In this document: positions 2,026-3,126 of the stretch, piece by piece
Numbering within the stretch: position 1 is the stretch's first letter
How the letters are laid out: every line of letters begins with the position of its first letter
NCBI GenBank assembly: GCA_944386635.1
Contig: CALXBV010000030.1
Coordinates: 1-39,158, forward strand
Length of the DNA stretch: 39,158 nucleotides
Direction: 5' to 3'
DNA from: an uncultured Clostridia bacterium
GTDB lineage: Bacteria; Bacillota; Clostridia; TANB77; CAG-465
Notes under the pieces: generated by a model
Told to the model about the DNA's origin: nothing
The model's database searches: none
Seen by the model: the letters and a program-made list of their open reading frames with translations, nothing else
Made by a program: the position numbers and the translations under genes

Positions 2026-2070
2026 AATAAAGTATAATAAAATTAAAAATTATACTTTATTATTTTTTTT
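2026..2070 (+). terminator. Rho-independent terminator after the lysozyme gene
   Basis: A 13-bp perfect A/T-rich stem (2026-2038 with 2049-2061), a 10-base loop, and a T-run from 2063. It lies 8 bases after the stop codon. Confidence 0.75.
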
Positions 2071-2104
2071 ATTTATTATATAATCAAATTGTGAGGTAGA
2101 ATAT

Positions 2105-3097
2105 ATGATAATATATGATGATGTAAAGAAAAATACTAAAATTGCAATTTTTTCTGAGCAAATCGATATATTAAAAGAGGTAGTAGATTTATTATTAAAT
2201 GAAAATTTTAATGTAGAAGAATATGAGCAGTTAGATGAACTTATAAAAAATGTACAAAAGATAAAGATTGTTATTTTAATAAATTGTGGTGTTGATATTT
2301 TAAGAAAAATAAGAGATAAAAGTGATAAGGTAATAATAATTGCAGTATGTAACAAGATAAGAAAATATAATAAGACTATAAGAACAGAACTAAATATTCA
2401 AAACATTACGGATATAGATGATATAAATTTAGAGTTAATGCGATATTTGCATTTGATATACCAAGAAGAAAGAGTTAAGTTTCAAAATTTTAAATCAGAT
2501 ATAGTTGCAAGTTTGGTAGATAGTATTTCCCATCAAGTACAATCTAATTTATTAATTATTGGAGCAAGTTTAGATGTTATAAAAATGATTGCAGAAGATG
2601 AAAAATTAGTTGGGAGTGGTGAGAAAAAAGATGTGCTTGAAAACTTGTACGAAAAAAATAATAAAGCTTTACAAAAAGCTAATATGCTATTACAATTAAT
2701 GTCTGATGCTACGAATGTTTCTAATGAATCAATAATGCAATATGATGATGTAGTAACTCTTATAAAATTAATATTAGATGAATATATAAAGGTAAATAAT
2801 ATAAATCTGAATATTAACGTGAAAATAAAAAAAGGTACTTATATTTGTGGACCATTAAATGATGTAATATTTATATTGTGTAATACTATAAAGCAAATTG
2901 CTAGTAAAGGTTATAAAGATATAAATTTAGATATTAAAGAAGATGAAAATAGATGGTATTTTGTAATTGATACTAATAATATTGATTTTGATAAGGAAAG
3001 TATAAGATCAATAAATAATTATTTTATATACTTAGAAGATGTTTTAGCAAAAGTCACATCTAAGAATATAATAATAGAAATAAAGAAAATAAAATAA
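2105..3097 (+). CDS. Pseudo-receiver / DHp-like / degenerate HATPase protein (unrecognised signalling protein)
   Basis: A 330-aa soluble protein, ATG 2105 preceded by GTGAGGTAG. Residues 1 to about 115 alternate beta and alpha as in a CheY-like receiver, but the strand-3 phospho-acceptor position reads VILINCG, with Asn/Cys where Asp is expected. Residues about 130-210 resemble a histidine-kinase dimerisation helix pair: SISHQVQSNL places a histidine at 143 in an H-box-like context, though the usual Pro two to three residues later is absent. The last 110 residues have an N-box-like stretch (ILCNTIKQI) but no visible glycine-rich ATP-lid motifs, so ATP binding is doubtful. By layout it recalls phosphotransferases such as Spo0B, which also combine a DHp-like hairpin with a dead ATPase fold; this is inference. 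It has its own upstream and downstream terminators, so it is monocistronic. No transmembrane segments. Confidence 0.6.
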   Translation: MIIYDDVKKNTKIAIFSEQIDILKEVVDLLLNENFNVEEYEQLDELIKNVQKIKIVILINCGVDILRKIRDKSDKVIIIAVCNKIRKYNKTIRTELNIQNITDIDDINLELMRYLHLIYQEERVKFQNFKSDIVASLVDSISHQVQSNLLIIGASLDVIKMIAEDEKLVGSGEKKDVLENLYEKNNKALQKANMLLQLMSDATNVSNESIMQYDDVVTLIKLILDEYIKVNNINLNINVKIKKGTYICGPLNDVIFILCNTIKQIASKGYKDINLDIKEDENRWYFVIDTNNIDFDKESIRSINNYFIYLEDVLAKVTSKNIIIEIKKIK

Positions 3098-3101
3098 TGA
3101 G

Positions 3102-3126
3102 GCTATGTGTACAACATAGCTTTTTT
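3102..3126 (+). terminator. Rho-independent terminator
   Basis: Stem 3102-3108 (GCTATGT) with 3114-3120 (ACATAGC), 5-base loop, then six T. It follows the stop codon at 3097. Confidence 0.9.

Follow-up and report, generated by a model that had tools for sequence, protein, structure and literature searches.

A probable decayed hybrid response regulator with a pseudokinase output in a family of Clostridia

What is the function of a protein that combines a receiver-like domain without its phospho-acceptor, a DHp-like hairpin and an ATPase-like domain without ATP lids? The question is raised by an open reading frame (ORF) of 330 amino acids at positions 2105–3097 of the window, the whole 39,158-nucleotide stretch of DNA analyzed here, which represents one entire contig of a 1.46-Mb metagenome-assembled genome (77% complete) from an uncultured Clostridia bacterium. 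A first-pass annotation placed the ORF at the same coordinates and proposed a phosphorelay protein laid out like Spo0B with an added receiver-like domain. The ORF is a genuine gene, not a chance one, because it has a full-length orthologue in 35 of the 36 genomes of the window's bacterial family and a dN/dS well below 1. Searches of Pfam, NCBIfam and the PDB with the protein sequence alone returned chance matches only (DUF2605, FosG), and a limited literature search found no paper on this protein family, which is no proof of absence. The gene, its parts and its flanks are as follows.

2029–2068, plus strand: terminator-like element, a perfect 10-bp inverted repeat (TAAAGTATAA...TTATACTTTA) with a T-rich run after it (sequence, by eye)
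2093–2096, plus strand: ribosome-binding site core GAGG, 8 nt 5' of the ATG (sequence; orthologues have the same start and a similar site)
2105–3097, plus strand: gene for a hybrid-response-regulator-like pseudokinase of 330 amino acids (sequence; orthologues in the family)
2105–2413, plus strand: pseudo-receiver domain, residues 1–103 (predicted structure; Pfam Response_reg matches in 22 of 35 orthologues, none in the pseudo-receiver clade)
2153–2161, plus strand: residues 17–19, SEQ, the metal-binding DDD in intact orthologues (alignment)
2279–2281, plus strand: residue 59, Ile, the phospho-acceptor Asp in intact orthologues (alignment)
2414–2596, plus strand: linker and DHp-like helix 1, residues 104–164 (models; alignment to true kinases)
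2531–2533, plus strand: codon of H143, CAT here, replaced by AAT (Asn) in G005 and by CAA/CAG, among other codons, in the intact branch (codon comparison)
2618–2710, plus strand: DHp-like helix 2, residues 172–202 (models)
2720–3094, plus strand: CA-like domain, residues 206–330, lacking the N-box Asn pair and the G1/F/G2 boxes (models, alignment)
3102–3126, plus strand: probable terminator, hairpin GCTATGT..ACATAGC followed by TTTTTT (sequence, by eye)

The inverted repeat at 2029–2068 lies between an upstream GH25 gene and the pseudokinase gene and is absent from the automatic hairpin scan, being too A+T-rich; the stem at 3102–3120 was reported by that scan, but on the minus strand. With these two elements flanking the gene, its earlier description as monocistronic is plausible. 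A role linked to the cell-wall neighbors (PBP1A, UppP, NAGPA) was considered and rejected: most members share the gene order, the exceptions being G021, G023, G016 and the genera g2 and g4. We claim no operon link with these genes, since the neighborhood is not universal and the window gene lies between terminator-like hairpins.

The fold was modeled with AlphaFold2 for the full-length window protein, using the family alignment (pLDDT 83.8, pTM 0.67). The model consists of a CheY-like fold, a long hairpin (residues 104–164 and 172–202) and a CA-like α/β domain (residues 209–327). Its receiver part matches known receivers (Z 14.5, rmsd 2.3 over 114 residues, with residues 9–122 aligned), and the C-terminal half, modeled separately (pLDDT 82, pTM 0.74), matches HK853 (Z 14.1, rmsd 7.2, 181 residues), while for the CA-like part the matches are kinase CA domains, the one from LvrB (Z 13.2) among them. 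LvrB is also the top full-length PDB match (E 1.9e-13), and the window protein has the LvrB-type order of receiver, DHp and CA in one soluble protein. The model and the structure matches thus bear out the domain composition read from the letters at first pass, namely a receiver-like domain, a DHp-like hairpin and a degenerate ATPase.

The orthologues, one per genome and spread over five genera, comprise 22 with an intact receiver and 13 with a pseudo-receiver, the window protein among the latter. The pseudo-receiver proteins form a monophyletic clade (100/100) that is nested inside a genus in the whole-protein tree (96/76) on a stem branch of 2.65 changes per column; a separate tree of the REC-HD-GYP protein places the same clade as sister to G002 and G024 (100/99). 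All 13 ORFs of the clade are intact, with lengths of 311–332 amino acids. G006 is the sole family genome without the gene. It was rejected as a case of gene loss, as the neighboring NAGPA gene is also missing from its assembly (with G003 and G004 as positive controls) and UppP was not found there either; the pseudokinase locus is probably missing from this assembly.

In the intact-receiver orthologues, the DDD, the phospho-acceptor Asp and the Thr are invariant (22/22), and the Lys lies within a DK motif. The window protein retains the CheY-like (βα)5 fold and none of these catalytic residues: SEQ replaces DDD, I59 occupies the position of the Asp, whose loss had already been noticed at first pass, and the Thr and Lys are absent as well. 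The receiver has decayed in all 13 members of the clade, and six species, about half of them, have also lost about 20 residues around α4. The Pfam model Response_reg (PF00072) accordingly separates the two groups, its best match among the 22 being 1.7e-18. PorX, the best NCBIfam model for the intact branch, was discarded as a guide to the family because it reflects the receiver alone.

The C-terminal half has the fold of a kinase core, but the first-pass annotation was mistaken in thinking that an N-box-like stretch is kept. In the N-x3-N-A motif, the first Asn corresponds to N262 of the window protein and the second is a Gln; within the pseudo-receiver clade, N262 itself is confined to the window protein and the two members most closely related to it. 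The glycine-rich ATP lids were rightly reported as missing, and alignment to true kinases reveals that the G1/F/G2 region is deleted outright, not merely mutated. Across the family orthologues, the N and G boxes are kept in none, and neither a conserved phospho-His nor the set of N, G1, F and G2 boxes expected of a histidine kinase is present. Judged by established kinase motifs, no family member should bind ATP, and the kinase output appears dead throughout the family. The CA-like domain has invariant residues of its own (G249, E279, W284 and K328). With its receiver site lost and its ATP-binding boxes gone, the window protein is, as first proposed, not an ordinary hybrid kinase.

This leaves the histidine on which the phosphorelay proposal hinged. 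H143 lies in SISHQ, in agreement with the SxSHQ context given earlier, and in an alignment to true kinases it falls on their phospho-His. Conservation of this residue among orthologues, which the first-pass annotation had itself made decisive for its proposal, does not hold: each of the 22 intact-receiver members has Gln, Glu, Lys, Leu, Ser or Thr at position 143, and His is found in 12 of the 13 pseudo-receiver members, the exception being an Asn in G005, whose protein is 83% identical to that of the window. His is therefore present in 12 and absent from 23 of the 35 family members. Since the pseudo-receiver clade is nested within non-His members in the tree, H143 is most simply read as a secondary replacement of a non-His residue and not as a phospho-acceptor retained from a kinase; the change from Gln requires a single base (CAA to CAT). 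The receiver Asp and the His at position 143 are mutually exclusive, no member having both. The Spo0B-like reading is thus unsupported on two counts, as H143 is not conserved and the nearest solved full-length architecture is LvrB, not Spo0B. The suggested co-occurrence with spo0A is likewise not specific, as spo0A is near-ubiquitous in the order (92 of 95 genomes), where the pseudokinase gene is missing from most genomes. The window protein has no Pfam match to the Spo0B or ChpT families at E values up to 10, and these families are not among the 25 commonest Pfam families over the 35 members at E values up to 1. Spo0B itself is absent among the structure matches listed, an absence that excludes nothing.

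A probable phosphate donor for the receiver is encoded in genomes of the intact branch. In many family genomes, a diverged relative of a sister-family kinase lies directly downstream of an NRPS gene. This NRPS-linked kinase is present in 20 of the 22 intact-receiver genomes (E 1e-31 or better), and in a 21st, G029, it is cut by the contig end; in G033, the NRPS lies on a contig fragment. None of the 13 pseudo-receiver genomes has it, the best matches there being other kinases (E 8e-12 or weaker); for the window genome, which is only 77% complete, the absence leans on the 12 other clade members. A search with the C-terminal profile had reported no relative of the parental kinase type in the family, a result that was discarded when direct search found the NRPS-linked kinase in 20 genomes. 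Loss of the NRPS falls on the same branch as the kinase loss and the receiver decay. However, G014 and G016, without NRPS condensation domains, still have the kinase together with an intact receiver; the state of the receiver thus goes with the kinase and not with the NRPS. The association between kinase absence and receiver decay suggests, rather than proves, that kinase and receiver are paired, and it counts as one event, not 13 independent ones, because the 13 genomes form a single clade. The NRPS-linked kinase is probably the lost phosphate donor of the family receiver. The kinase and REC-pseudokinase genes are not neighbors in any locus read.

The origin of the protein can be approached through the same kinase type. 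When 287 genomes of the order were searched with the C-terminal profile, those of sister families usually yielded just one kinase each (E mostly 1e-8 to 1e-18), whose gene in the loci read often adjoins those of an NRPS and of REC-HD-GYP. Phylogenetically, the C-terminal half clusters with this NRPS-linked sister-family kinase type (93/85) and the receiver with REC-HD-GYP receivers; these are the nearest sequence relatives found for the two halves, respectively. The pseudokinase protein is therefore likely a fusion of two neighboring signaling partners, on moderate support only because long branches separate the family from its presumed parents (3.02 changes per column in the C-terminal tree and 1.83 in the receiver tree). 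In the sister families, kinase and REC-HD-GYP are not fused; the former has intact H/N/G boxes and the latter keeps the receiver Asp. The phospho-site of REC-HD-GYP is Asp in 10 of 10 sister-family proteins and Asn in all 31 readable family members (e.g., L074:3455–4471). A search in branch lengths for co-evolution of the pseudokinase protein with REC-HD-GYP found none, as no matching acceleration of REC-HD-GYP occurs in the pseudo-receiver clade.

Selection acts very differently on the parts of the protein. By the Nei–Gojobori method on close pairs, for which some dS values are near saturation, dN/dS in the pseudo-receiver clade is 0.18–0.78 for REC, 0.05–0.09 for DHp and 0.06–0.19 for CA, and the receiver of intact-receiver pairs has values of 0.00–0.10. 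The receiver has a mean identity of 41% in the clade and 65% in the intact branch; for the H-box helix the means are 71% and 53%, respectively. Constraint is greatest on the surface of DHp helix 1. Constraint has shifted from the receiver to the DHp-like module in the pseudo-receiver clade, and the receiver became relaxed after the kinase was lost, while the DHp-like part stayed constrained. Separately, dS in the clade is 0.30–0.72 in the receiver part (window 2105–2413), below the 0.74–1.47 of the rest of the gene, at similar GC3.

We consider it likely that the window protein is a decayed hybrid response regulator with a pseudokinase output, which would act by protein binding independently of phosphorylation. 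An ancestor would have joined a REC-HD-GYP-like receiver to the DHp-CA core of the kinase encoded alongside, and the phospho-His and ATP lid of the kinase half would already have been gone when the family radiated. Most species have an intact receiver that is probably phosphorylated by the orphan NRPS-linked kinase, and this phosphorylation would switch the DHp-like dimer, which in turn would bind another protein. In the window's clade, where the kinase and NRPS are gone and the receiver has decayed, the protein would work independently of phosphorylation through its conserved DHp-like surface. The fold, the missing catalytic residues, the distribution, the nesting of the clade and the pattern of selection are read from sequence or models. 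Three elements of this reading, namely the kinase–receiver pairing, the protein-binding mode and the partner, we infer; the REC-HD-GYP protein is the leading candidate for the partner because it is encoded beside the parental kinase type in sister families.

The same data can be read in other ways. If function had been regained after receiver loss, H143 might relay phosphate between response regulators as in Spo0B or ChpT; the histidine stands exactly at the kinase phospho-His position, a catalytic role is conceivable given its retention in all but one clade member, constraint in the protein is strongest on the DHp helices, and Spo0B and ChpT likewise have a dead CA domain, with ChpT (4fpp) among the Foldseek matches (E 7.7e-8). 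We regard this as unlikely, as G005 carries an Asn in an otherwise unremarkable protein, no intact-receiver member has the His, the Pfam families of Spo0B and ChpT are not matched, and a one-base change may be drift. Quite unlikely, too, is the scenario in which that one-base change gave the dead kinase half a phosphorylatable His again and made it a new Spo0B/ChpT-like phosphotransferase, one phosphorylation site being traded for the other.

Two further readings concern the receiver decay itself. Once the kinase had disappeared, the whole protein might be drifting towards loss, and divergence is indeed 5.3 times that of REC-HD-GYP from the same genomes in the pseudo-receiver clade, versus 1.2 times in the intact branch, with a relaxed receiver shortened around α4 in six species. 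But every ORF of the clade is intact, dN/dS is low in DHp and CA, the H-box helix is conserved, and G006, the only genome without the gene, probably lacks the locus in its assembly. The selection pattern mostly refutes such drift, and DHp constraint largely excludes it, so that we rate it as very unlikely. Alternatively, the pseudo-receiver could be an input domain for a ligand or partner, newly evolved in the clade by adaptive and not relaxed change, in keeping with the very long stem branch, a receiver dN/dS that is still below 1 and a fold predicted to be kept. The clade's receiver, however, has no conserved pocket-like motif, its α4 region is deleted in about half of the members and its identity is only 41%, which makes adaptive origin rather improbable.

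A decayed hybrid response regulator can be placed among known systems. LvrB of Leptospira (PDB 8vc9; PMC5863495) shares the N-terminal receiver followed by a DHp-CA core, with no DNA-binding domain and no sensor; it is an ATP-dependent autokinase whose Asp56 and His161 both function, and takes phosphate from a partner kinase (PMC5863495). In the family described here, by comparison, the kinase core appears dead throughout, and the receiver is dead too in the window's clade, its phosphorylation residues being present in the 22 sister orthologues. Spo0B and ChpT have in common with the window protein a DHp hairpin and a CA-like domain unable to bind ATP, which for the window protein is predicted from the models and alignment; however, the His is their defining residue and they have no receiver, whereas here the His is missing from most members, a receiver is present and no sequence-family match exists. 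DivL of Caulobacter is a sensor-type protein in which a Tyr replaces the His. Its kinase core has become a protein-binding module (PDB 4q20; PMC4211667), to which the window protein may be likened (structural match with Z 13.1, rmsd 11.6, 185 residues), and it offers a precedent for the repurposing of a kinase core, although DivL is without an N-terminal receiver of the kind seen here.

Hybrid response regulators with a kinase output are already known; what is new is the family-wide pseudokinase output and the kinase-linked decay of the receiver. How pseudo-receivers arise and work was called a mystery in a recent review (PMC12632262), and matched intact and decayed homologues are now available for testing this. 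The window's clade amounts to a natural experiment, in which the probable donor kinase is gone, the receiver has decayed and the pseudokinase half is under strong selection. It suggests that a dead kinase core can be the very part of a signaling protein that selection keeps, and it gives the NRPS-linked kinase, otherwise an orphan, a likely regulator.

Several features of the surrounding loci were also observed. NRPS genes (about 1,400–2,480 amino acids) followed by a membrane histidine kinase gene recur across the order (L101–L114; L155–L170), and in sister families REC-HD-GYP often comes next, making up a recurrent NRPS-plus-signaling locus in small-genome Clostridia. In the window, the upstream GH25-plus-dockerin-like gene (390–2018) is broken by an in-frame TAA into ORFs 390–1037 and 1044–2018 of the same frame; its homologues are single ORFs of about 540 amino acids, and the split gene is a pseudogene or an assembly error. 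In most genomes, a BacA-type UppP gene occupies the slot immediately upstream of the pseudokinase gene, or one gene further, and in G003, G004, G010 and G017 (L043, L085, L086, L088) this slot is filled by a PAP2-type phosphatase gene, an apparent swap of one undecaprenyl-phosphate phosphatase type for another.
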